Below are positions 1 to 24,951 of a stretch of 39,246 bases of DNA, one piece after another; position 1 is the first letter of the stretch; each line of letters starts with the position of its first letter. The DNA comes from Pigoraptor vietnamica (taxonomy: Eukaryota; Opisthokonta; Filasterea). Made by a program: the position numbers and the translations under genes. The notes under the pieces are model-generated. The model worked only from the letters and a program-made list of their open reading frames with translations. It was not told the DNA's origin and ran no database searches. The stretch lies in the NCBI GenBank assembly GCA_943704525.1, contig CALSCQ010003016.1:1-39246 (forward strand), written 5' to 3'.

Positions 1-317
1 CAACTCACGGGCTACTGGCTGCACTTTGTTTGGTACGAATATATGCAATATTAATGGAGATACGAATCAAAACGTAAAATCGTAAAAAGTGTTATTCTCA
101 ACGCGGCCCGACTTTAATTCTTATTCGTATGCGGCGCGTGCGTATCGGATGGGAATAACAACTTCGTTCCGCCTTGCACCTTTTCCTTCGGCAAACGTGA
201 AGAAGCTACTCTTACGCACACACACATGCACACATGCACTCATCCACACACTGCCGTCCCCACTTCTTTGAGAAAGGCGCTTCACTGTCCTGGGCGTGTT
301 AATCGTAACATCGAAAA
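1..317. other. Non-coding 5' flank of the first gene
   Basis: No convincing coding region lies here. The stretch is less GC-rich than the gene that follows (roughly 1-110 is AT-rich) and holds a short CA-rich run near 217-251. It probably contains the promoter and 5' untranslated region of the gene starting at 318. I see no clear TATA box or other recognisable element. Confidence 0.5.
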
Positions 318-3300
318 ATGGCTACCGGCGTTAACGACGTCTGTGGCGAACTTCCGAGCGCGCTGCAGGACGCGCCCGCTTGGCCCGACCCACTGCCGCC
401 GCGGGGACTCGGAGCGCCGGTCGTTGATGATGTGTCGCGCTTGAACATGCGTGTTGTGGGAGGCGTTTTTGAACCACGCACAGAGGACGACGTTCGGGCG
501 CTCGTGGCACTAGCCGAAAAGACAGGACGATGCATCTGTGTGCGCGGCACCCAGCACAGCATGGGAGGCCACTCGATTGCGGACGGTGCCATCGTGATTG
601 ACACCGTGCGTCTCGCGCGTGTCGTGTACGACCCTGCGTCGAGACTGGTGAAGGCGCAGACGGGGGCGCTGTGGTGCGACGTTATTCGCGTGCTGAACGC
701 GCACGGAATGTCCCCACGCACGATGCAGTCGTATGCGAGCTTCTCTGTGGGTGGCACTCTGGCCGTCAACGCGCATGGGATCACGACGGACCACTGCATC
801 GCCGAGAGCGTCGTGTCCTTTCGCCTCGTCAAGGCCGACGGCAGCGTCGTCGTGTGCGCGCGCGACGGGCCCAGCGACGAGAGCCGCGAGTTGTTTGCCC
901 TTGCGATTGGCGGCTACGGCATGTTTGGGATCATTACCGAGGCAACGATGCGCGTGGATGAGAACTGCACTTTGCTCGTGCACACGCTCCGCCTCACTGT
1001 CCAAGAGTTCCCCGACGTGTTTTCCGCCGCGCTGGAAGCCGACGACGTCGCCATCAAGCTGGCGCGCCTCGATCTTTCCGACACGACCAACATCACCCTC
1101 TTTCTCTTCCGTTGCTGCACACCAAAGGGACTGGGGACGGTGTCTTCGCTGCCACACAGGCCGCGCGAGATGGCGGGCGCACGCCGCCTCCTATTCAAGT
1201 GGCTCGCGCCCACGTTCAAGGAGCTGCGGTTTGCGCTGGAGAACAGGTTTGGCGTCGCGCTGGACTGGAACGACGCCGACGAACAGCAGCGGAATTTGCT
1301 CATGTTCGAGTCTGCCGAGCCCCTCGCCCGCCTCTTTGAGCCGCTGCTGCGCACCGACGACACGTTCGTTCTCCAGGAGTTCTTTGTGCCGCGCTCCCAC
1401 TTTGCGGCGTGGCTCTTCGCCGCGCGTCCCATTCTCGTGGAGGCCGACGGTCAGCCGCACAGGCGCTGCACCCTCCTCAACGTCACGATACGCTTTGTGC
1501 GGCAGGACGTCGACACGGCGCTTCCGTACGCGAAAGACGCCGAGGGAATGTTTGCCTTCGTTCTCTATTTTCGCATTCCTCGGACCGACGCCGGCGACGC
1601 GGCGCTTCACGATATCCACCGGCGGCTTACTAGCGTCACGCTTGGCCTCGGTGGCACGTTTTACCTCCCGTACAGGCATCACTATGGCAACGAAGACCTG
1701 CGCGCCGCTTACCCCGGCATCGAGGCGTTCTGGGCAAAGAAGGAGGCGCACGATCCCCGAGGTGTCTTCGACAGCCTGTGGCGCAAACGTTACGGCCCGT
1801 CATCGTCGCGCATACAAGTGGCGACGCCGAACGAGCGGCTCGTGCTCGACCGTCCCATTGTACCTCGTCTCGACCCCTCTCTGAACTCTGTCGCCGTCGT
1901 GCCACAGCGGCGCACCGACTCCTTCCGTCGCGTCATGGGCAGCGCTGACTTGTGGCGCCAGTTCACCGACGAGTTTCTCACGGCCGTATTCAACGTGGAA
2001 GACCCAGTGCGCCTCTCGCGACGGGTGGCGCGGTGCGCGTGGAACCCAAAGCACTCCGACGACGATGCCATCTACGCGGCACTTCAGCACGCGCTGGCGA
2101 GCGAGTCCTCGGGCGTTCTCGCGGGTGCCGCCAAGGGTCTTCGCGGGCTCTTTCAGCTGCGTGATCAGAAGGCCGAGCTGTTGAGAGAGACAATGTCAAT
2201 TCTGGGGCACCTGGGCAAAACGGGCGCCGTTAACGACTACCTCAGCATCGGAGACCACGGCAAGATGGTCGAGCCGCTCCGCAAGGCCCTCGGAATGCGG
2301 GGCGAGTGCGTGTGCGCGCACGACGCTTGCGACGACACGGATATGGCCGCCGTGGTTGAGCGCGGGCGACTGGACCCGCCCGACCGCTTTGTGTTCATCG
2401 ATTACGAGCACGTGGCCGCCGGCTTCCCCTCCCTCGCCGCCGACTCGTTCGACCTCGTGACGATCAACCAGGGACTGCACCACATGCCACAGGAACAGCT
2501 GCTCCCGTTCCTCCGCGACGTGCGCCGCGTGCTGCGTCCCGGCGGCCTCCTCATCGTCCGCGAGCACGACTGCGACCCAACGGCGCGTCACCCGGACATT
2601 GCAGCCATGCTGGACGTCGCACACATGGTGTTCAACGCCGTCACGGGTGTCGACTTTACGTCGGAAAAGGGCGAACGGCGCGCCTTCCGCCCTCTTCTCG
2701 AGTGGCGCCGCATCGTCGAAGCCGCCGGCCTGTGCGACACGCTGCTTTACGAGATGCAGCCCGGGGATCCCACGTGGGACGAGATGATGTGCTTCTTCAA
2801 GCCCCCTCTGTGGCCGTCACACGCCGCCTCGTCCGCTGCCGTTGCGGCGTCGCCTTCGGGCCGCCTGTCTACAGCGGCATATGCGCCTCCCATTGCACTC
2901 CCCCGCGTCGTCGCAGCGCTGAACGAGGTGCCCGGTGTCGTGCACGCAGCCGCGACCGGCATTGTGGATGGCGTGCTCTCTGCACTTCCCGCACTCGCGG
3001 CGCATGTAAAGGCCCTTGCGGCGTCGGCAATGCCAGGCCACGCGTCCATACTCGACGGCCCCATTGACGGCGTCGTCGCGTCGGCCGCCGTCCTGCTGGA
3101 GCGCACAAAGGCGCATTTGGCGTGCGTGGAACTGCGCGACGACGTCCCCGAGCTCATCCCACACGAGGTCTTCCTCGCCCTCGAGTGCCTCAAGCGGAAG
3201 GCCGCAACGAACCGTGCGTCCGCCACCGAACTCGCCGCCTGCGCCCTGCTCAAGAAGCTCGAGTCGGCCTTTACCATGCAGCCACCCGCCGTGGTCGCGC

Positions 3301-5066
3301 CCGTGTGCCACGTGACCGCCGAGGGGCTCAGCGCCGTGCGTGCGGAGGACGTTGCGGCCGAACTCCGCGCCCTTTTGGAAGCGCAACCGGACCTGTGCGA
3401 CCCTGACGCGCTGGATCGCTTCGGGCTCTCTGCGCTGGGAAGTCGGTACGCCGCGATGGCCCTACAGCAAATCCCGGAGGGTGGGCGCCTCGAGCGCTGC
3501 GCCGAGTGGCTCTCTCTCAACTTAGATGCGAACGCGTGGGAGGAATTGAAGGCGGCTCTTGCACGCCTCAAAGTGCCGGGCGGTGTGGTCCCGTTGACGC
3601 TCGCGAGTGTGCTGGCGGAAGGGAACGCATGGCACGACGCGGCCATGGCGGTGCTTGGATGCCCCAAAGTGCGGCTCAGCGCTGCCGTCACGTGGCAGTT
3701 GCGTCTCGTCGGGCACCCCGAGGTCGCGTCGTTGTGGGCGGCGGCGCAGTCGAGGAGGTCGAGCAGGGCGCACGAGGTTGGCGGCGACGACGACGAGAGC
3801 GCGTTTCCCACCGTCTCGCAGCGCGAACTGCTCGCAATTCGGTCTGCCCTCGCGGATCTCAACGCCGGCCAAGTTGCGTGCGTGCGGATGGACGAAGGGG
3901 ATCTGTACGACGTGCCCAACGTGAGCGAGGTGGTGGAGGCAAGGTACGACGGCGTGGACGCGACAGCGGCCGTGCGGCGCCTCTACTTTCGCAACGGGCA
4001 GTTACGGCTGCGCGGGCGCGACATCACTGCGGACCTTTACGCCGAGGGCGTGCTACAGTGGTCTGTCGTTGGCGCTGTCTTTGGAATGCTCACGTGGCGC
4101 ACGCGACGCTTCGTCGTGCGGTATCGCGCCACGGGTGGCGACGCGGCACTTGGAGAGGAAGAGGCCCTGCGCATTTGCTGCCTGCTTGCGAGCGCGGGGC
4201 TGACCCGTCCGCTGCACGGTGGCGCGGGGGAGGGCCACTGGACGTGGTTCAAGCTGAGCGAGTGGATGCAGGTGGAGATGATGCAGGCGTTTGCGAACGG
4301 AATGGAACGGACTCCCTGGTACCGCTTTCCCTTTGGCCGCTTTCTCTCCCTGTATTTTGACGTGCTGTGGCGCGAGGTGCGCGTGGTCGCGGACAGGTGG
4401 GGGTGGAAGGCGGCCGTGCTCAGCCAGGCCTTTGCCGTCGATTTCGTGCCGGGCCTCGTCATGGGCGCCGTCTTTGCACAGCTGCAGGCGCTGGCACTCC
4501 CCGCGTTGAGTGTGGGCGGCGCGCAATACGACGACACGCGGATGATTGAAGAGCTCGTCGTCGCGACGCCCGACGACACGCCCGTGGACTGGACGGCAAT
4601 AGACCCCCGCATTCGATCCGCCATGAAGGTGGTCGACGGCCTCTACGTTCTTGCCGTGCCGACGTTCAAGCCGCTCACGGAAGTTCTGCTCACGATCGCC
4701 GTCTCTCTCCCGTTTGCGTGCGTTCTGGAGATATCGCAGCGCAAGGAGGTCCAGGTACGCCTCAAGATACTCGACGGCGAAGAGGACGGCACCGACAGCA
4801 GCATGGCTTCCGGCGGTCCGTCGACGGCGCCCGGCGATCGCGAGGCCGCCATAACGTCGAGCTTGTTGCGCACGTTGGGAGGTCGCATGCCGCACGGCTG
4901 CGAGATCAAGTTTGCGTACGAGTATCCCACGTTCGGCGAGTCCGGGTCGCTCGGCCGCCACGTGAGCGTGTGTGTGCAAGTGCCGCACCTGCTCGAGGCC
5001 CTTCGCGTGTTCTCGCGGCATTCTGGGCGCATATCCGTCGCACAAGTGTACGACTTCTTCAACTAA
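318..5066 (+). CDS. FAD-linked oxidase fused to a SAM-dependent methyltransferase, with a long unknown C-terminal region
   Basis: Single uninterrupted reading frame of 1582 codons. Residues about 38-230 look like an FAD_binding_4 (VAO-type) domain: a VRGTQHSMGGHS segment near residue 75 is the usual FAD-contacting loop, followed by IVIDT and a glycine-rich VGGTLAVNAHG segment. Residues about 450-493 (YRHHYGNEDL, FWAKKEAHDPRGVFDS) resemble the C-terminal end of aldonolactone/alditol-type oxidases. Residues about 635-830 form a class I methyltransferase: YLSIGDHGK (motif I-like), FDLVTINQGLHHMP, then VRRVLRPGGLLIVREHD. The rest, about 830-1582, I do not recognise. It has an alanine-rich helical part and a hydrophobic stretch near 1440-1490. 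The ATG at 318 opens the frame. Substrate is unknown; a small-molecule oxidation plus methylation step is inference. It is intronless while most neighbours have introns, and its 3' end is duplicated at 7321-7605. Confidence 0.85.
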   Translation: MATGVNDVCGELPSALQDAPAWPDPLPPRGLGAPVVDDVSRLNMRVVGGVFEPRTEDDVRALVALAEKTGRCICVRGTQHSMGGHSIADGAIVIDTVRLARVVYDPASRLVKAQTGALWCDVIRVLNAHGMSPRTMQSYASFSVGGTLAVNAHGITTDHCIAESVVSFRLVKADGSVVVCARDGPSDESRELFALAIGGYGMFGIITEATMRVDENCTLLVHTLRLTVQEFPDVFSAALEADDVAIKLARLDLSDTTNITLFLFRCCTPKGLGTVSSLPHRPREMAGARRLLFKWLAPTFKELRFALENRFGVALDWNDADEQQRNLLMFESAEPLARLFEPLLRTDDTFVLQEFFVPRSHFAAWLFAARPILVEADGQPHRRCTLLNVTIRFVRQDVDTALPYAKDAEGMFAFVLYFRIPRTDAGDAALHDIHRRLTSVTLGLGGTFYLPYRHHYGNEDLRAAYPGIEAFWAKKEAHDPRGVFDSLWRKRYGPSSSRIQVATPNERLVLDRPIVPRLDPSLNSVAVVPQRRTDSFRRVMGSADLWRQFTDEFLTAVFNVEDPVRLSRRVARCAWNPKHSDDDAIYAALQHALASESSGVLAGAAKGLRGLFQLRDQKAELLRETMSILGHLGKTGAVNDYLSIGDHGKMVEPLRKALGMRGECVCAHDACDDTDMAAVVERGRLDPPDRFVFIDYEHVAAGFPSLAADSFDLVTINQGLHHMPQEQLLPFLRDVRRVLRPGGLLIVREHDCDPTARHPDIAAMLDVAHMVFNAVTGVDFTSEKGERRAFRPLLEWRRIVEAAGLCDTLLYEMQPGDPTWDEMMCFFKPPLWPSHAASSAAVAASPSGRLSTAAYAPPIALPRVVAALNEVPGVVHAAATGIVDGVLSALPALAAHVKALAASAMPGHASILDGPIDGVVASAAVLLERTKAHLACVELRDDVPELIPHEVFLALECLKRKAATNRASATELAACALLKKLESAFTMQPPAVVAPVCHVTAEGLSAVRAEDVAAELRALLEAQPDLCDPDALDRFGLSALGSRYAAMALQQIPEGGRLERCAEWLSLNLDANAWEELKAALARLKVPGGVVPLTLASVLAEGNAWHDAAMAVLGCPKVRLSAAVTWQLRLVGHPEVASLWAAAQSRRSSRAHEVGGDDDESAFPTVSQRELLAIRSALADLNAGQVACVRMDEGDLYDVPNVSEVVEARYDGVDATAAVRRLYFRNGQLRLRGRDITADLYAEGVLQWSVVGAVFGMLTWRTRRFVVRYRATGGDAALGEEEALRICCLLASAGLTRPLHGGAGEGHWTWFKLSEWMQVEMMQAFANGMERTPWYRFPFGRFLSLYFDVLWREVRVVADRWGWKAAVLSQAFAVDFVPGLVMGAVFAQLQALALPALSVGGAQYDDTRMIEELVVATPDDTPVDWTAIDPRIRSAMKVVDGLYVLAVPTFKPLTEVLLTIAVSLPFACVLEISQRKEVQVRLKILDGEEDGTDSSMASGGPSTAPGDREAAITSSLLRTLGGRMPHGCEIKFAYEYPTFGESGSLGRHVSVCVQVPHLLEALRVFSRHSGRISVAQVYDFFN

Positions 5067-10891: not shown

Positions 10892-11473
10892 ATTCAAGAA
10901 CACGCGCAAAGGAAAAGCGACGCGCACGCACTGCAGCGACAACACCGCTTCGTTTGTGTGTGCTTTCTCCGTCGCTCAAAGTTTCACGTCCTCTGTGAAC
11001 TCGAGTAGGAACTCTTGTGTGACAAAGAAATTGAAAATTCCATGCAAAATGTGGCACATTTTCGGATAGGCTTCACATTAATGCTCGGCAATAGAAAACT
11101 AAATTGTTTATAATAAATAGATTTATATGTCTTTACATATAGGCCATCTTCTCGGATAATTTCAAGATTTTCACCTGTTATCTATTACTCATCACATGAG
11201 ACTGCTTAATAGACCCATTACGTTGCCCATAAGCAGGCAATCAGGTGGGCGCGTGACGAGTGTACGTAGCCCCATGAAAGTCATCTTCTCTTCTTACGAC
11301 CACGCAATCACACACGTACACATCGGACCTCACGAAAGCCTTGCAGCGAGGGCGGATATTGCCCAGTTTGAAGCCCTTCGCGTTTTAATCCGTGCGTTTC
11401 ACTGCTTTCATGGAGGCTCCGTGAGATCTTCCACGACGCACTCCTGCGCCACGCGGTCGCGCGTCGGTGCACC
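10892..11473. promoter_or_regulatory. Divergent intergenic region between HSBP1 and the first POMT
   Basis: No coding signal. The part from about 11030 to 11220 is strongly AT-rich against a GC-rich background. The two genes diverge from here, so it probably holds both promoters. No specific factor site can be claimed. Confidence 0.5.
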
Positions 11474-12726
11474 ATGGAGCTGCGACAGCGCACGTTCATG
11501 GGCACGCCGGCCTCTGCGGCGTCGCCCCCCTCGGCAACCTACGACGACCATGTGTACATAGTGGGCGCGCCTGGCGAGGGGGTGGAGGAGCCGGTGTCAC
11601 CAACAGAGGCAAAGGCTGCCCATCTGCCGCGGCCGCTGTTCGATGCCGACGACGCGCTCTTTCGCGGACACGGGCGCTATCTCGAGGCCCTCTTTCGCAC
11701 GCCCCGAAGCCGTCGCGTGTTCGTCACCATCGTCTTTCTTCTGTTGGGACTGGCGACGCGCTTCTATCGCATCTCGGAGCCGCACCAGGTCGTGTTTGAC
11801 GAGGTGCACTTTGGGGGCTTTGCGAGCAAGTACATACAGCGCTCGTACTTTTTCGACGTGCATCCGCCGCTGGGAAAGCTGCTTGTTGCGCTGCCTGCGT
11901 GGCTGAGCGGGTACGACGGGTCGTTCACGTTCAAGGACATTGGGCTCGACTACAGCAAGGCGCACACGTGAGTGTCTCGCCGCTGTGTGCATGTGTGCCT
12001 TTAGATCGACCACGAGTACTTGTCACTCGCACTTACCTCTTTTGCGAACGCAGGGACGTGCCATATGTTGCGATGCGCTCCGTGCCGGCGTTGCTCAACG
12101 CGCTCGTCGTCCCCCTCTCCTTCCTCACGATGACAGGTGCGCGCGCAGCGTAATTGCAGCGACTGATTTTGAATTTTAATTACTGTTATTTTGTCCGTTT
12201 GTATGGGCGTCTTCCTTTCGTGTTCGCCATTGACGCGCTATGTGTGTCTGGTCGCGGCTAATCGCAAATCTCACCTTGCGCAGAGTGGGGCTTCTCGATG
12301 ACGGGGTCGATCATAGCGGGCATGCTCGTGCTGTTTGAGAACAGCTTTGTCACGCAGTCGCGCTTCATCCTCCTCGACTCGATGCTCATCTTCTTTGTCG
12401 CCACGTCCGTTTACTGGTGCGTCCATGCTGCGCTCAATTGTACGGGGTATGTAAAGGGGTGTGGACGTGTCCTGACGTTGTTCCATTCCGTGCGGTCGTA
12501 GCTGGGCGGTGTTCTGCAACCTGCGGTCGCGGGCGTTCACGCGGCAGTGGTGGCTGTGGCTGTTCCTGCTGGGCGCGTCGCTGTCGTGCGCGGTGAGCGT
12601 CAAGTGGGTCGGTCTCTTTATTATTGCGCTGATTGGGGTCCACACGGTGCTGGACATCTGGAGGCTCATCGGCGATCTCAAGCTATCGATCGTGGACTTG
12701 GTGGGTTTTTGCTATGTGCGTGCGTG

Positions 12727-14798: not shown

Positions 14799-15566
14799 GC
14801 GTGTGCGTTTTGCGTGTGCTGCGTTGCGCGACTGCGTGCGTGCGCGTGTGCGTGATTGTTTATGGGACTAATAGGCGACGTCACCTTGACTCGGCGTTCC
14901 TTCCGTCATGGCAAAGGGCATTCATGGTACATAAAACTACACCGGAGGAGAAAGGACCAAAGATGGAAAGGACCGCAAAAAAAAAAAAAAAAAAAACAAA
15001 AAATCCCGGTGCTCCACGTTCCAGCCAGTAACAACGGTAGCACACAGCTGTTCATTGCAAGGTGGGTGTTTCGCAGGCCTACGATCCCCACGTACTGTGG
15101 GTGTTAGGAATGCATTTACGATTTGATGATTGAGTGGGTGTTATGAATTTCCCGCGCAGCAACAACGCCCCCTCGCGTGACGCACACGGCGCACCCAGAC
15201 ACACACACGCACGCGCACGCCCTATATCGTCGGACATTTGCTGCATGTGTTTCCATGGTCTTCTCCGCGGTATGCCATTCGCTGTCGGCACACCCTTGTG
15301 GCTTGCGTCGATTGAGAGGGTCTTCTAGCGCCGAACTGCCTCTGTCGAATCGGTTTTCGGTCGATGTAAACTTGTTTGCGTCTGCGCGTTGGCTTACGTA
15401 AGCGTCGTTGACGAACTCAAAAAGGGCTTCGTCGCCGGCATCCTGCGTGGGGAGCGAGGGGCCCGTGTGCGTTTTAGCTCACGTGACCGCGCAGATGGCG
15501 TGCGAATAGCGTGATTTGGACGGGCGCGCGCCGTTGTTGCTGCGTTGCGTGCGCGTGCGTGAGACG
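14799..15566. other. Spacer between the two tandem POMT genes
   Basis: About 770 bp without a credible gene. It holds a run of A residues near 14977-14996 and otherwise mixed sequence. It should contain the 3' end of copy A and the promoter of copy B. It shows no evident similarity to the region upstream of copy A, so the duplication seems to include little 5' flank, or the flanks have diverged. Confidence 0.45.
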
Positions 15567-18500
15567 ATGGAGCTGCGTCAGCGCGTGGCGGCCACGCATC
15601 ACGCGGGCCAAGAGTTGACGAAGCGCCACATTGCGACGCCGACGGGTGTGTCGGAGCGCGCGGACGATGGCACGGCATCTCCGCGAAGGTCGCGCGTGTC
15701 GCCGCCCCTGCTGGACTCTGAAGACGACGTGCCGTTCCGGGGACGCGGAGGTATCTTGGAGGCGCTGTTTCGCACGCCGCGCAGGCGACGTCGCCTCGTG
15801 GCCTTCGTCTTTCTTCTGTTGGGACTGGCGACGCGCTTCTATCGCATCTCGGAGCCGCACCAGGTCGTGTTTGACGAGGTGCACTTTGGGGGCTTTGCGA
15901 GCAAGTACATACAGCGCTCGTACTTTTTCGACGTGCATCCGCCGCTGGGAAAGCTGCTTGTTGCGCTGCCTGCGTGGCTGAGCGGGTACGACGGGTCGTT
16001 CACGTTCAAGGACATTGGGCTCGACTACAGCAAGGCGCACACGTGAGTGTGTTGCGTGCCTTGTCGCGTGTCTCGTTTATCGCTACTAATCAACTCCCCT
16101 CGTGTTTTCGCCCGTAGCGATGTTCCCTATGTCGCGATGCGCTCCGTGCCGGCGTTGCTCAACGCGCTCGTCGTCCCCCTCTCCTTTCTGACCATGATGG
16201 GTGCGTACCTGCTGTGTTTCGCCTTTGGTTTGTTTGCTTTCGTTGTTCACTTGTGTGTTCTGTTATGTGTTGTGAACGACTTCTGTGCTCGTATTGGCGC
16301 AATGTGTATTTGCGCACACGTCTGACGCTCTGCCCTCTTCTCTCGCAGAGTGGGGCTTTTCGATGACGGGGTCGATCATTGCGGGCATGCTCGTGCTATT
16401 TGAGAACAGCTTTGTCACGCAGTCGCGCTTCATCCTCCTCGACTCGATGCTCATCTTCTTTGTCGCCACGTCCGTTTACTGGTGCGTCCATGCTGCGCTC
16501 AATTGTACGGGGTATGTAAAGGGGTGTGGACGTGTCCTGACGTTGTTCCATTCCGTGCGGTCGTAGCTGGGCGGTGTTCTGCAACCTTCGGTCGCGGGCG
16601 TTCACGCGGCAGTGGTGGCTGTGGCTGTTCCTGCTGGGCGCGTCGCTGTCGTGCGCGGTGAGCGTCAAGTGGGTCGGTCTCTTTGTTATTGCGCTGATTG
16701 GGGTCCACACGGTGCTGGACATCTGGAGGCTCATCGGCGATCTCAAGCTATCGATCGTGGACTTGGTGGGTTTTTGCTCTGTCCGTGCGTGCACTGTGTG
16801 TGTTGGTGTGTGGGTGTGTGGGTCTGGATGTGGGTGTGGGTGGGTGTGCGCGTGTGTGCGTTTGTGCGTGTAGATGCACGCGTTTTCTGTGCTCCACTTC
16901 CATCCTGACGCAAAGTGCAATTCGTGCGCAGCTGCTCCACTTTTTCGCGCGAGTGCTCTGCCTCATCATCGTGCCCATCGTGGGCTATGTGTTGTTCTAC
17001 TACATTCACTTTTCAATCCTCACCGTAAGCGGACCCGGCAACGCCTTCATGAGCTCCGACTTTGTTCAGGGACTTCGCGGCGCGACCGTCACGAACTCAA
17101 CCGCCCTTACATATGGCTCGCAGGTGTGTGCCGACCTTCAACTGCTGTACCTTGCTTGTGTGTCTGAACTCTATGCGTCTGTCAGTTGCACTGAGCTGGT
17201 GCTGTCGAAATTCCGGCCGTTTTATGACACCGACGTGTCCCCGCGCAGTTGACGCTCAAGCACGCGACGACGAGCGCGTACCTTCACTCGCACTCGCATC
17301 TCTATCCCTCGGGCAGTGGCCAGCAACAAATGACGGCGTACGGCTTCAAGGACCACAACAACTGGTGGCTAATTAAGCGTCCGCCGGCCATGTCGAACAC
17401 CTCGGACATTGTGCTGCACTCTGGATCGCAAGTGTACCTCGAGCACGTTGCGACCGAAAGGGGCGTCTATGTACACGGGTACCCGCCGCCCGTGAGCCCG
17501 CCCGGCGACCCGCAAGTCCTCTTCGAAGCCAGCGCCGACGACGGCGACGGACATCCTTGGGAGCTGCAGATCGTCGCGACCCCGCGGGACAAGCTCGCAC
17601 GTGACTCCGGCCAGCGGCAGCTCACGCCGAACTCGGTGGTCCGGCTCGTGCGCCGCGGCGGCGAAGGACGGCCTGAGTGCGCCCTCTCCGCATCGTCGAC
17701 TCGCCTGCCGGAGTGGGGCTTCTACCAGTTTGAGGTCACGTGCTCGCGGGACCTAGGCAACAAGGAGTCCCTCTGGACGATCGAAGAGGCGAATGCCGCA
17801 AAAGGTGGGCATCGTGCTTTTAGGCTCGCGTCTTACGCTAATGGAAGCGATAATATATGCTGCACTGTTTCTGACACTGACGCAATGCAGCCGAGACATT
17901 CGTGACGACACCCGCCGTGAAGGACCGCAGCGACTTTTTCACGCGGCTCGGCGACATTTGGGACATCCAGTTTATCGCGTGGGATGCGAACAAGCGCATC
18001 AGCGGCGAGCACGTGTTTGCGAGCCAACCGGAGGACTGGCCGCACTTGGCGCGCGGGATAAGCTACTGGCAGAACGCCGGCAAGAACATGCAGGTCTACC
18101 TGTTGGGCAATCCGATAGTGTGGTGGGCCGCGATTCCCACGTGCGCCCTGTATGGGGTCATGGCATTTGCGTATCTCATACGGTGGCGCCGCGGGTGCCG
18201 CGACTTTGACCCGGGTGAGTTTGTTTTTTTTTTTTTGTTTTCCCTGTCCTGTTGGTTGTTGCGAAGAGACACATCTGCCAGTTTGACGACGCAGCTTGTT
18301 CTTACTTTTGTTTTTCTCTTCGCTCTTTGCAGAGGGTCGGCGCAAGTTCATGCTGGTCGGGGATTTCCTCGCTCTAGGGTGGTTTCTCCACTACGCGCCC
18401 TTTTTTGCGATGGAGCGACAGCTCTTCCTCCACCACTACCTCCCCGCGCACCTCTTTGTGCTGCTGGGCATCGGCGCATTCCTCGACCACCTTCTCGTGT

Positions 18501-19281: not shown

Positions 19282-22200
19282 TTATAGCGCGGCCGTCCAC
19301 GCTGTCCCAGGCGCGCTCGACGCCAGCGACGGCTCCGACTCGCGTATTGCGCCGCGGCGCTTCTCAAACGCAGCCTTGAGAATGGACGTGAGGTCCGCCG
19401 CAGCCGCGGGGGGAAGCGCCTTCAAGTCGGCAAGTTGGCGGGACTTGGGCCCTGATGTTGGGCGAAGGGACTGCTTTCCCGCGCTGATTTCGTCCAACAA
19501 CGTCTCCACGCGGGCATTCGCGGCGGCGGCCGCCCCCACCGACCCCTTCCGCACCGCAGGCGGCGTCCCCGAGACCGGCGGTTGACCACTCGCGCGGGGC
19601 GGACGGGACGACGACGACGCCGAGACGCCGTCACCTTTCGCGGCTTCGGCTTTACCCCCGGCCATGCGAATTGCCTGCTGCAGAGTTGAACTCAGCGCGC
19701 GCTTGGGAGGGGTGTCGGTTTGCCCGGCATCGCGCGCGACGCTCTTTGGGGCTTTCGGAGCCTTCGCTGCGCCCTCGCCTGCAGCGATGGGGGACGGCGC
19801 ACAGACGGAGCGACCGACGAGGTCGACCACGAACATCGCCGTCGCTGGGTCTGCAATTTCGTCCTGGCGAATGCCCGCCTGCGCAAACAGAGCGCGCCAC
19901 TCGGGGGGAAAGACAAGGGCGTCGAGATCGGCGAGAACGTTGGAAAATTCCGGGCGCGCCGACGGCTGCTGGTGCCAGCACTTCGCCGCGAGTGACGACA
20001 GGCCCGCTGGACAGTCGGCGGCAAAGACCGGCCGCGTCCCGCTACGCACCGTCGTCATGATCTCGACCATGGAGAGACCCTCAAAGGGCTTGCGACGCGA
20101 CGCCATTTCCCTGCCAGAAAAGAGGAACGGCGAAATCAGACACTCGCGCACATCATAACGGAAAAGAAAACAACAACAACAACAAAAAAACAGAAACCAA
20201 CGATGACGTCCACCCACCATAGAATGATTCCGTACGCATACACGTCGGCCTTTGTCGTGAGCGCCATCGCCTTGCCCTCAAACGCCTCCGGCGCAAGCCA
20301 CGCGGGCGTCCCTCGCAGTCCGCCGCTAATCGTCGCAGCCGCATCGAGCTTGAGGCGCGAGAAGCCAAAGTCGCTGATCTTCGCCGTCCCCGAGCTGTCC
20401 AGCAGCACGTTGGGGCTCTTGAGGTCGCGGTGGACGATCGGCGGGCGGTGCATGTGCAGGAAGTTCATGCCCTGCGCAATGTCACGCGCGATCTTGTGGA
20501 AAGTCACGTGGTCGTCCAGCCAGGGCGACCCCTTGCGCCGGTGAATGAGGTCGTATAAGGAACCGCCCGACATGAACTCGAGCACCATCGTCGGTCGCCG
20601 CGACGCCGTGCACGCGCCGAGGAAGAGGATGATGTTGGGGTGACGCAGGCGGTACAGCATCGCCGCCTCCGAGAGAAAGTACGCGTGGTGCTTGCCGTCC
20701 ACGCTCGCCCGCAGTCGCTTCACCGCGACGTCCGTGCCACGATACATCCCGCGAAACACCTCGGCAAACGCGCCGCTCCCAAGCACGGATCCTTCAACCA
20801 CGTGCACCTCCTCCTCCGCAATCTCAAAGTCGGGCCGCGCCGAGTGCGTGTCGGGGATCGCAGAGAGCTCCTCGTCCGCACGCCGGATGAGCCGGTCGTT
20901 AGCCTCAATGCGCGAACGCGCAAACGCAGAAAGTTCGTCCGCGCCCGCAAACTTCCCCTCTACAACCTGCGCCTCGAGCGCCTTGATAAGCGCCGACGTT
21001 CGCTCCAGAGCCGCCGCCCTCTCCCCGTCCGAACCGGGCGCAGCGCGCTCGTCCTGCGCACGGCCCACGCCGAGACGGTTCGACTGTCCCCTCAGCTCGT
21101 CCACTAGCCGCCCAATCTCCGCAGCGTGCTGCGAGTGCGAAAGCCCATCGCCTCCCGGTGCCGCGTCCGCCTTCTTCGTCAGCGGAACGGTGGACGAGTC
21201 ATCCACCATTGGCCGCCCTTCGCCACCACCGATGCCGACGCCGAAACCAAGATCGAGGATGGCAGGCTGCAATGCGGCACGCGGCGCACGCACTTGGCTT
21301 GAGGAGACGCGGGGCACCGGTGGCGGCCGCGACGCCGACCCTATTCGCCCGCCTGAGGCGCGCTGTGACTTTGACGCAGCTGGTGCCTCGGTCGCCCGAG
21401 CGTCGTGCGGAGACGACGGGCTGTCATCGGCGACGCGCGGAGAGTCCGCTGCATCGCTGGGAGGGCGTCGCGGTGGCTTTTGTGCGCGCGGGGCCGAGGG
21501 TGCCTTATCCTTCGCAGTCTTTCGAGTGAGCGAGGCGCCCTTCTCCGGGGCATCGGTTGTCACTTCCACTGGCGGTGCGTTCGGTGCGTTCGATGCGTTC
21601 AGAGCGTTCGCCGGCGCTGTGGTGGCGACAGGCGCGGGCGGCGCGTGCGGTGCTGGCGGCTCTGCAGGCGGAGGGTTGAGCTTCCGGCGGAGGGCCTCGA
21701 TGCCAGCGACGAGCTTGTTGAGTGTCCCTATGGCAGCGACGCCCATCTCGCGCAGCTGGGACTCGGTGACCATGCCGAGGGAGTCCATGTCGACTTCGTG
21801 CTGCTCGAAAAGCGCCGCGTACTTGCCGACATCCCGGATGTTCAGCGACGACAGCCAGCGCGCAACCTCGCTTTCCGGCACCTGCGGCGCAGCGGGCACC
21901 TCATGCGCGTGCGGGTGGGTGGCTTCCACGGGTGGCGACTGCGGCGAGGCGGTTTCCGGAGGCCGCTCTCGCACTGCCGACGCAGCTCGATCCTCTGTCA
22001 TCGGTGCACCGCGCCTGGCACGACCGCCCGCGTCCGAACCGTCAACGACGCTCGATCCACTCGTTGCGTCCTGGTCAGCCGCTGCCTGCAACAAAGGGTC
22101 CGCCGCAGCGCTCCTCGCACGGGGCGATTCGACGCGCGTTTCGGTATCCGACGGCCCGCTCTTCCGCTTCTTCTTCGCGACCTTTGCTGGCACCGCACCG

Positions 22201-23482
22201 ACGTCATCAGTCGCCGCCGGACGCACGTGTGGCGTCGCCTTCGCGCCAGACGTCGACCCTCCAGCGCTGCTCTCTGCCGCCTCGGCCGCCTTCAAGCGCA
22301 CACTGCCCAGTTTCGACGCCTTCTTCGCGGACACGTGACCGCTGTCGGTGGCGGGTTCCGGCGCCGCAACGGGCACTTCCACAACCGGTGCTCGAGCCGC
22401 CGATGTAACGCGACCCTCGGCGTCCGCAGTCACGGGCGCCTTCTTCTTCTTCGACGTGCCCTTGGACGCCTGCGCACGAGTCGCATTCCCCTCGCCATGC
22501 GGCGCTGCTGGGACAGACGCAATTTCCTCACGTGACAGTGCTGCGCCTCCTTCAACTTTCACACGCCCAGTACCAGCGTCGCCCGCGGCAGAAGCGCCGG
22601 TGGCGGTCCCCGACGACCTCTCGCGCTTCAGAGACGCCGCCCTCGCATCACCACTTCTGACATCCCCAGAACTCGGGACGCGCACATGGACGGCCGTCGT
22701 CGCACTCTCTGGCTCGCCCGTGGTCGCGGCTCTCTGCGACGGTTTCGCACGACTGACTGTGCCATCGAGAGCCGCGGCAGCATCGGCGTGGACAGCCGCA
22801 TCGGGCGTTACGCGAACCGCCTTTTTCTCCACTTTTCTCGCTCCCGCGCCCGGTTGTACGTTATTAGCTTCTCCTCGCTTCGCCGACGCACGGTCCCCGT
22901 CGGCTACAGAGCCACCCCCTTCGTCAGGAGCTCGATCGCCTCCTCGGCTCGGACGCGTAACTTCCGTTACTCGCACCGTCCGCGAACTCGCGTTATTGGC
23001 TGATGCATCCGATGAGCGCAAAGCGGCGGCGGTGGCCGACGCCGACGACTTCGCGCTACCCAAAGTGCTACGATCTGCCGAAGGGGCCGTGATAGTGTCG
23101 GGCCGATCGGGCTCCTTTCCGGTCAGCACGACGACGCGGGGCGATGCACTGCCACCCTTCGTGTCTGCCGCGGGCTTGGACTTTGGCGGTTTCGCTGATT
23201 TCCATCCACTGGAAGGCAACGAGAAGAAGAAAGGAGAGAGGAAAATCAGTACGAGGAAAGTGGAAAAAAGATGAACGGGTGAGTTTTGGCGCATGATTGC
23301 GCAATTAACACTCGCAACACCCACCCCGTCTTCGAGTCTGCAGTGGCGAGGCGCGTCTTGTGCTGCTCGAGCAGCTCCTGCATCCGCCGCACTTCCGTCT
23401 CCAACCTCGAGTTCTCCGCCTCAATGCGCGTGCTGTCGAGCGAGGACGTCCGCCACGGGTTGTACGGCGCTTTCGACGCCAT
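19282..23482 (-). CDS. SAM-domain tyrosine-kinase-like (TKL) protein kinase with WASP-like CRIB/WH2/central C-terminal motifs
   Basis: Exons 23482-23325, 23208-20218 and 20110-19282 join in phase to 3978 nt (1325 residues). Residues 1-52 form a predicted coiled coil (EAENSRLETEVRRMQELLEQ). Residues about 55-490 are low-complexity, rich in Ala, Ser, Lys and Arg. A SAM domain follows at about 495-560 (VARWLSSLNIRDVGKYAALF, LREMGVAAIGTLNKL). The kinase domain is at about 855-1115: GSGAFAEVFRG, VAVKRL, HRDLKSPNVLLD, DFGFSR, GTPAWLAPE, YAYGIILWEM. All catalytic residues are present; the pattern is TKL-like. The tail has FPPEWRALFAQAGIRQDE (like the helix after a CRIB motif), LLDEISAGKQSLRPTSG (WH2-like) and DLTSILKAAFEKRRGAI (like the WASP central helix). 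It ends GTAWTAAL without an acidic stretch. Role inferred: signalling kinase that also binds actin. Confidence 0.9.
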
Positions 23483-24004: not shown

Positions 24005-24511
24005 TCAAGGGCACAGGCATGCATTCCGTTGCGACTTCTGAAACGCAGCGCAACCAAAGCCAGCCGTTCCAAAGTGGAAGAGCTCGGCGTTGTTCTTGCA
24101 CTCGACACGCTCCTGCTCCGAACGCTTCGAGTCGCAGACCTGGTCCATGCACGCTCGGAAGCGGTCGTCGCACTCTTTCTTCTTGGAGAGGCACGTGTCG
24201 TAGCAGTAGTCGTGCGCATCGCAGCAGGGCTCCAGTTCAGGCACGTCCAGCTTCATGCCCTCCACGCCGCAGCCGTTCGACGACTTTTGGTGTTCCGGGT
24301 TGGGCAGGGGTTTGGCGCCATTCGGACACTTGAAACCGCACGCGTCGCCGCCGAGAATGCCAGCGCCGCCACCAAAGAGAGACCCCAGGACGTTGCCGAG
24401 CTCCTCGAGTCCCAAGTTTTCCGGGTTGCCCTGCTGCGCCGCCGCCGGTGCAAACGTTGCGGCACACAGACACACGAGCGCAAGCACACAGAATGCACGC
24501 GCGCCAGCCAT
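24005..24511 (-). CDS. Secreted phospholipase A2, group XII type
   Basis: Intronless frame of 168 residues. An N-terminal signal peptide is clear (MAGARAFCVLALVCLCAATF, cleavage likely near residue 25). The mature protein carries the group XII pattern: CGFKCPNGAKPLPNP, SSNGCGVEG, then the catalytic box CCDAHDYCYDTC with the His-Asp pair, and a cysteine-rich end (FGCAAFQKSQRNACLC). This matches the human PLA2G12 order CGFQCPNG...NGCG...CCNQHDRCYETC closely and differs from classical group I/II enzymes. Expected role: calcium-dependent hydrolysis of the sn-2 ester of phospholipids outside the cell or in the secretory pathway; group XII members often have weak activity. Cys content predicts many disulfides. 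Start chosen at the ATG that gives the signal peptide. Confidence 0.92.
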   Translation of the reverse strand: MAGARAFCVLALVCLCAATFAPAAAQQGNPENLGLEELGNVLGSLFGGGAGILGGDACGFKCPNGAKPLPNPEHQKSSNGCGVEGMKLDVPELEPCCDAHDYCYDTCLSKKKECDDRFRACMDQVCDSKRSEQERVECKNNAELFHFGTAGFGCAAFQKSQRNACLCP

Positions 24512-24951
24512 TTTTGAATACCGATACTATCGGCGAATAATAAGATTGGGTGAGATTTTCACCCGAGAAATGAAGCTTGTGGTTAATGTGTTCGTTCGTG
24601 CGAAACCAGCCAATCAGCAAGAGCCACATGCGCGGTTTTTGGTAAGTCTTTTCTTCCGAGAGCTCGTAATAATTTGGTCGCCTAGCAATCTTGTGGCCGT
24701 GACAAATTAATTTGAAAATGCGCAAAAATCTGCGAGAATCGTGGAGTAATTTAAATTTAATCGGCAGAGCAAGAATGCGAGGTACTGTGACACATTCCAA
24801 CGTGAAACACCACGCACACACACACAACACGCACACACTCGTCACACTCGCAAGGTACAAAGCATCCTTCATACCGAGAAAGCTATAGAGAAGAAGATCT
24901 TAGTCGTACACTCTTTTTGGCGTCGATTCTTGCTGCCTTATAGATACGAAG
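24512..24951. promoter_or_regulatory. Divergent promoter region between phospholipase A2 and the zinc-ribbon gene
   Basis: Non-coding and AT-rich (notably about 24700-24770) with a CA-rich run at 24809-24840. Both neighbours are transcribed away from it, so it probably holds both promoters. No individual site is identified. Confidence 0.5.

Follow-up and report, generated by a model that had tools for sequence, protein, structure and literature searches.

WASP is normally signalled via GTPases, lipids and separate kinases, and in WASP and N-WASP autoinhibitory helices are followed by a WH2 (V) element and then by the central (C) helix. The same succession is seen in the tail of a kinase with a SAM domain and a TKL-type kinase domain (the MLKs are also TKL kinases), encoded in a 39,246-nucleotide stretch of the Pigoraptor vietnamica genome (contig CALSCQ010003016.1, positions 1 to 39,246), here called the window. 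Unlike WASP and N-WASP, this protein is a kinase in which no WH1, basic region or CRIB is found and in which the acidic end is degenerate, the WASP-like part being fused behind the SAM-TKL kinase. The autoinhibitory helices (WAID) are the half of the GTPase-binding domain (GBD) that binds the C helix, and some WASP-family proteins are described as having a WAID without a CRIB (Kollmar et al. 2012, PMC3298513). The family names in the sections of that paper used here are WASP, WAVE, WASH, WHAMM, WAWH and WAML, and the word kinase occurs in these sections only within the name of IRSp53. Entamoeba WAML (IMD-WAID-PPR-VCA, with no CRIB; PMC3298513) resembles the window kinase in having a CRIB-less WAID and a WASP-type C-terminal tail after an unrelated N-terminal module; however, this module is an IMD and not a kinase, and a VCA domain is described for it. 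Ack1/TNK2 (SAM-kinase-SH3-CRIB; PMC10047419) shares with the window kinase the combination of a SAM domain, a kinase and a Cdc42-effector-type element, and it is linked to WASP, whereas it is a tyrosine kinase, its CRIB is present and neither a WH2 nor a C helix appears in the domain list given in that source. In MLK a CRIB-type element lies on the C-terminal side of the kinase, and the PBD of PAK has a similar helix, but both have a CRIB, and a WASP V-C tail is mentioned for neither in the relevant sections of PMC8847673. The preliminary description of the window knew of no kinase of such a layout, and none with a WASP V-C tail is described in the literature searched, which leaves out most subscription papers.

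It is well supported by the sequence comparisons that the tail of the window kinase is real and homologous to the back half of WASP, minus the CRIB, in two orthologues. The reading that we regard as probable is that a SAM-TKL kinase has gained the back half of WASP (WAID, linker, V and C, with a worn-down acidic end), and that its C helix would be held by the WAID and not released by Cdc42. The second orthologue, P0032 (EukProt Nk52_evm28s343), was found by a database search with the kinase; the prefix Nk52 denotes Chromosphaera perkinsii (PMC6981761), which is classified as a dermocystid ichthyosporean (PMC5560861). The window is part of a genome of 32.5 Mb in 1395 contigs, and the WASP, WAVE-like and PBD sequences referred to below as own are from this same genome. 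Pairwise scores are judged against shuffled sequences (mostly 5000; 1000 for the PBD comparison), and the fractions given are those of the shuffles that reach the observed score. The features of the gene are as follows.

19282..23482, minus strand: SAM-TKL kinase gene, 3 exons (23482-23325, 23208-20218 and 20110-19282), 1325 amino acids
21687..21878, minus strand: SAM domain, residues 497-560 (Pfam SAM_1, 3.1e-11)
19924..20792, minus strand: TKL-type kinase domain, residues 859-1112, split by the intron 20217-20111 (Pfam PK_Tyr_Ser-Thr, 2.8e-61, at residues 860-1112)
19804..19911, minus strand: autoinhibitory helices of WASP type, the WAID half of the GBD (residues 1117-1152), with no CRIB seen; assigned by the score against own WASP
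19456..19509, minus strand: WH2-like (V) element, residues 1251-1268 (Pfam WH2, 13.6-14.3 bits, below the cut-off)
19333..19398, minus strand: C-like amphipathic helix, residues 1288-1309, conserved together with V in P0032 (9/5000) and aligned ungapped with human WASP C
19282..19332, minus strand: C-terminal end with the lone Trp1321 and the stop, not acidic (2 acidic residues in the last 20)

The first tail element is, as judged from its sequence, the WAID half of the WASP GBD. The comparison of F1117-V1152 with the own WASP GBD gives a score of 97, with shuffles at 21.6 ± 3.9 (0/5000 reach 97), and the own WASP is the best non-kinase match of the tail in the genome (E 2.2e-5, 43% identity); the score against human WASP is 62 (0/5000). 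When compared with the PBDs of its own genome, the window WAID scores 98 and 76 with the two WASP-type domains and 50, 44, 24 and 18 with the four others compared, loci L005 and L008 being left out of this comparison. The scores of 44 (the PAK-like PBD of L001) and 50 (L004) are reached by 0/1000 shuffles each, whereas those of 18 (L006) and 24 (L007) are at or near chance (928/1000 and 116/1000). An origin of the helix from PAK rather than from WASP is therefore disfavoured. A WAID profile, built from the window protein, P0032 and the two own WASP-type domains, picks out, among 121 kinases, the two orthologues and no others (72 bits each; the next reaches 1.8), and its only matches among 39 own loci are this kinase, WASP and the second gene of WASP type, with L004, L001 and L005 at 7.8-12.2 bits, below threshold. 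Other own kinases with a WAID were not found among the loci taken from the best (L009-L023) of the 96 tail matches. The helix had been proposed to provide a contact of the Rho-GTPase type, and this proposal finds no support: the helix is the autoinhibitory half, and the GTPase-binding CRIB is not found, since at most 3 of the 8 fixed positions of the CRIB consensus are matched in either the window protein or P0032. Because the WAID normally binds the C helix, the expected mechanism shifts, and self-locking is the better expectation.

The layout of the tail is preserved in P0032, where FPSEWRVLFNEAGVKDEEI, NLLAEIQGYDISKLKKR, SDIVSVLKQALASRRSVL and ELWSATG follow each other in the same order of elements as in the window tail. 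The kinase domains share 138 identical residues of 264 aligned, with HYD in place of HRD and DLG in place of DFG in P0032. The SAM regions score 83 (0/5000), and the only match of the P0032 SAM region in the genome of the window is this kinase gene (E 0.0017); Pfam gives no SAM call in P0032. Between the two tails the WAIDs score 105 and the V-C regions 46 (9/5000), and residues 1166-1325 score against the corresponding part of P0032 at a level reached by 46/5000 shuffles. At the place of the window V element, P0032 has a fuller WH2, NLLAEIQGYDISKLKKR, which scores 51 against the own WASP WH2 (0/5000) and is matched by the own WH2 profile (4/5000), with no Pfam match. The whole V-C region of P0032 scores 81 against own WASP (shuffles 24.7 ± 4.5; 0/5000), 60 against the own WAVE-like protein (1/5000) and 32.4 bits against a WASP and WAVE profile (0/5000, best shuffle 10.5), and its C element alone matches own WASP C (0/5000). 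The window WH2 and C are credible because the V-C region of P0032 matches both WASP and the V-C region of the window; when P0032 is added to the WASP and WAVE profile, the score of the window V-C region is reached by 4/5000 shuffles. It had been held that lack of conservation in relatives would tell against a WASP-like tail, and an orthologue with the three elements in order is now at hand. The WASP-like character of the tail and its order of V then C, as first proposed, are thus in agreement with both the WAID score and P0032.

In the gene model both introns are GT-AG, and a single reading frame runs across the joins to give 1325 residues; the N-terminus MASKAPYNPW is similar to MSSNPW of P0032. 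The catalytic motifs are GSGAFAEV, VAVK, HRDLKSPN, DFG and APE. The final part of the kinase domain and the entire tail are both encoded in the last exon (20110-19282), so that a transcript encoding the complete kinase includes the tail, barring alternative splicing. The spliced translation bears out the shared last exon of the preliminary description and places its three tail stretches where it had put them, FPPEWRALF from residue 1117, LLDEISAG from 1254 and DLTSILKAA from 1289. Many CTR1 kinases are found among the database matches of the kinase, but viral kinases rank higher: among the matches listed, kinases of Pandoravirus and other giant viruses stand above most eukaryotic ones, where whole-protein scores perhaps add two kinase domains. 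The structures nearest to a model of the P0032 kinase and tail are CRAF, CTR1 and BRAF, with only kinases among the best 50 matches, and the NCBIfam search was uninformative.

The terminal acidic motif is essentially absent, as first described: of the last 20 residues 2 are acidic in the window protein and 3 in P0032, compared with 12 in own WASP and 13 in the own WAVE-like protein. A Trp is kept near the C-terminus of both kinases (Trp1321, and that of ELWSATG in P0032). A hidden 3' acidic exon is rejected, none being seen when about 880 bases past the stop are read in three frames.

Several results weigh against this reading of the tail. The acidic end required for strong Arp2/3 activation is missing, and the tail is known from two species only. 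The Pfam cut-offs are unmet for the tails of both the window protein and P0032; for the window, the PBD match has 12.7-15.8 bits (cut-off 21.3) and covers only profile positions 26-53 of 59, and the WH2 match of 13.6-14.3 bits is below the cut-off of 23.1. The description of the V element as a good match to LLxxIxxGxxL holds in part, a similar motif being present at the site with one additional residue between the Gly and the Leu; the resulting Ile-to-Leu length is that of one WH2 of own WASP (L032). The score of the window WH2 against the own WH2 profile (from 11 WH2 matches without L034, the second WH2 of L031 being added by eye) is reached by 323/5000 shuffles, that of WH2-C against own WASP by 2105/5000, which is chance level, and those of the window tail against the WASP and WAVE profile by 4148/5000 and 559/5000, the latter for WH2-C. 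The C element, compared with the WASP central helix, aligns ungapped but modestly with human WASP C (89/5000), and its score against own WASP C is reached by 828/5000. P0032 also compares less well with human proteins (WASP GBD 1/5000, N-WASP GBD 51/5000, WASP C 146/5000). In a search with the window tail, none of the 7988 scored candidates is listed at E<=1, P0032 not being listed either, and among the 1496 candidates of the search with the P0032 tail none but P0032 is at E<=10; these searches reach only proteins of similar length sharing exact words, and absence elsewhere does not follow. When ten shuffled V-C sequences were run against Pfam, neither WH2 nor PBD was matched and a single chance family came up at E 0.046, which indicates that an E near 0.05 proves little alone.

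The top PDB match of a model of the window tail, built without WASP sequence, is the autoinhibited WASP structure 1EJ5, and this match is not significant (Foldseek E 2.3 over 36 columns, with Z within the noise range of the tool). The model has low confidence (pLDDT 50, pTM 0.38), the C element being predicted as helical with block pLDDT values of 63-81, and, as AlphaFold was trained on the PDB, the likeness to 1EJ5 could be recall. Among sequence searches of the PDB, the single window tail found nothing, and the V-C and C-only profiles of the pair found no WASP; the P0032 V-C region alone found three thymosin/ciboulot-type chains and one Mediator chain (E 0.24-0.79). The WAID profile of the pair has an Entamoeba PAK PBD as its best match (E 0.03) and also matches acyl carrier proteins (E 0.3-0.7), most of them ahead of WASP (0.5-0.8).

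This genome probably provides targets for a V-C tail, since it encodes ARPC3 (1.2e-36), WASP and a WAVE-like protein whose end is acidic. In own WASP a CRIB-WAID domain, two WH2s and a C helix are followed by an intron and then by the acidic end DDEDDGDVGGDDDEWD. Searches with ARPC2 and ARPC4 models found nothing, which adds to the points against, and are uninformative, as the controls likewise gave no match. A second CRIB-WAID domain, very near to that of own WASP, is present at L003/L036 (G000:C194:2841-3002), where the open frame stops soon after. Locus L031 (G000:C1055) has two tandem WH2-like motifs, the one that was scored having 22.4 bits, just under the Pfam cut-off, followed further downstream by LESDDDWD and a stop; by its sequence it is a possible further Arp2/3 activator.

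From these data we infer an actin or Arp2/3 function of the tail, and the enzyme may have a direct effect on actin. The gained part would consist of the WAID, the linker, the WH2 (V) and the C elements, with the WH1, basic and CRIB parts left out. Just past the C-lobe of the kinase, the C helix would fold back on the WAID, as in resting WASP. With no CRIB, Cdc42 or Rac would be unable to open the tail in the manner of WASP; opening would come from kinase activation, autophosphorylation or SAM-driven clustering, probably from the kinase. The released V-C region would bind G-actin and contact Arp2/3, and, with little acid at the end, it is expected to nucleate weakly, or mainly to bring actin and Arp2/3 to the kinase. 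Lacking a recognizable CRIB and an acidic end, the protein is not filed as a WASP-family nucleator and would work only partly like one. A stronger form, in which the kinase takes over from Cdc42 the role of the switch by which a built-in V-C region is freed, so that phosphorylation would lead to actin assembly without a GTPase, is put forward tentatively, as something that may well not hold.

It is also conceivable, though unlikely, that the WAID docks on the kinase and holds it off, as in the self-inhibition of PAK, with V and C being vestigial. Hardly any linker separates the kinase domain from the WAID, which is similar to PAK-type PBDs as well (L001, L004 and the Entamoeba PAK PBD), and the window V and C have drifted; however, the WAID is clearly nearer to WASP (98), a strong V-C region is retained in P0032, and in PAKs the PBD and the inhibitory domain are described as N-terminal to the kinase (PMC8847673). 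About equally unlikely is regulation in trans, in which the WAID would bind the C helix of a real WASP and the kinase would phosphorylate WASP in the manner of Ack1, with its own V-C region competing for actin or Arp2/3 without nucleating. An own WASP with intact C helix and acidic end is indeed present, conservation between the orthologues is higher for the WAID than for V-C (105 and 46), poor nucleation is expected without an acidic end, and phosphorylation of WASP by Ack1 is described (PMC10047419); yet the kinase's own C helix would be favoured in cis over binding in trans. There is very little to be expected, finally, of the view that only the WAID is real and that WH2 and C amount to short motifs perceived in sequence of low complexity. 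The chance-level score of the window V-C region alone against own WASP would fit it, but in P0032 the elements stand in the same order and V-C matches WASP, while the linkers of the two tails hardly align (4 identical residues of 23 aligned). A chance resemblance of the whole tail is likewise disfavoured by P0032.

Elsewhere in the window, one 1585-residue open frame at 309-5066 (plus strand) has a FAD-binding oxidase domain (5.6e-26) and a methyltransferase domain (1.6e-7), a combination that looks unusual. Two adjacent dolichyl-phosphate-mannose-protein mannosyltransferase-like genes are found at 11372-11971 and 15510-16046 (plus strand), their first-exon frames having 65% identity over 177 aligned columns, with the final ~60 residues identical. 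A Group XII secretory phospholipase A2-like gene lies at 24005-24526 (minus strand; 2.7e-27).

With a self-locking WASP tail joined to it in two protists, such a kinase would cut short the pathway by which WASP is usually controlled. This arrangement would also mean that reuse of the autoinhibitory half of the switch is possible without the GTPase half, under another controller, and it would provide a compact, testable system for the release of WAID-C locking in an animal relative, where actin regulation has evolutionary interest.
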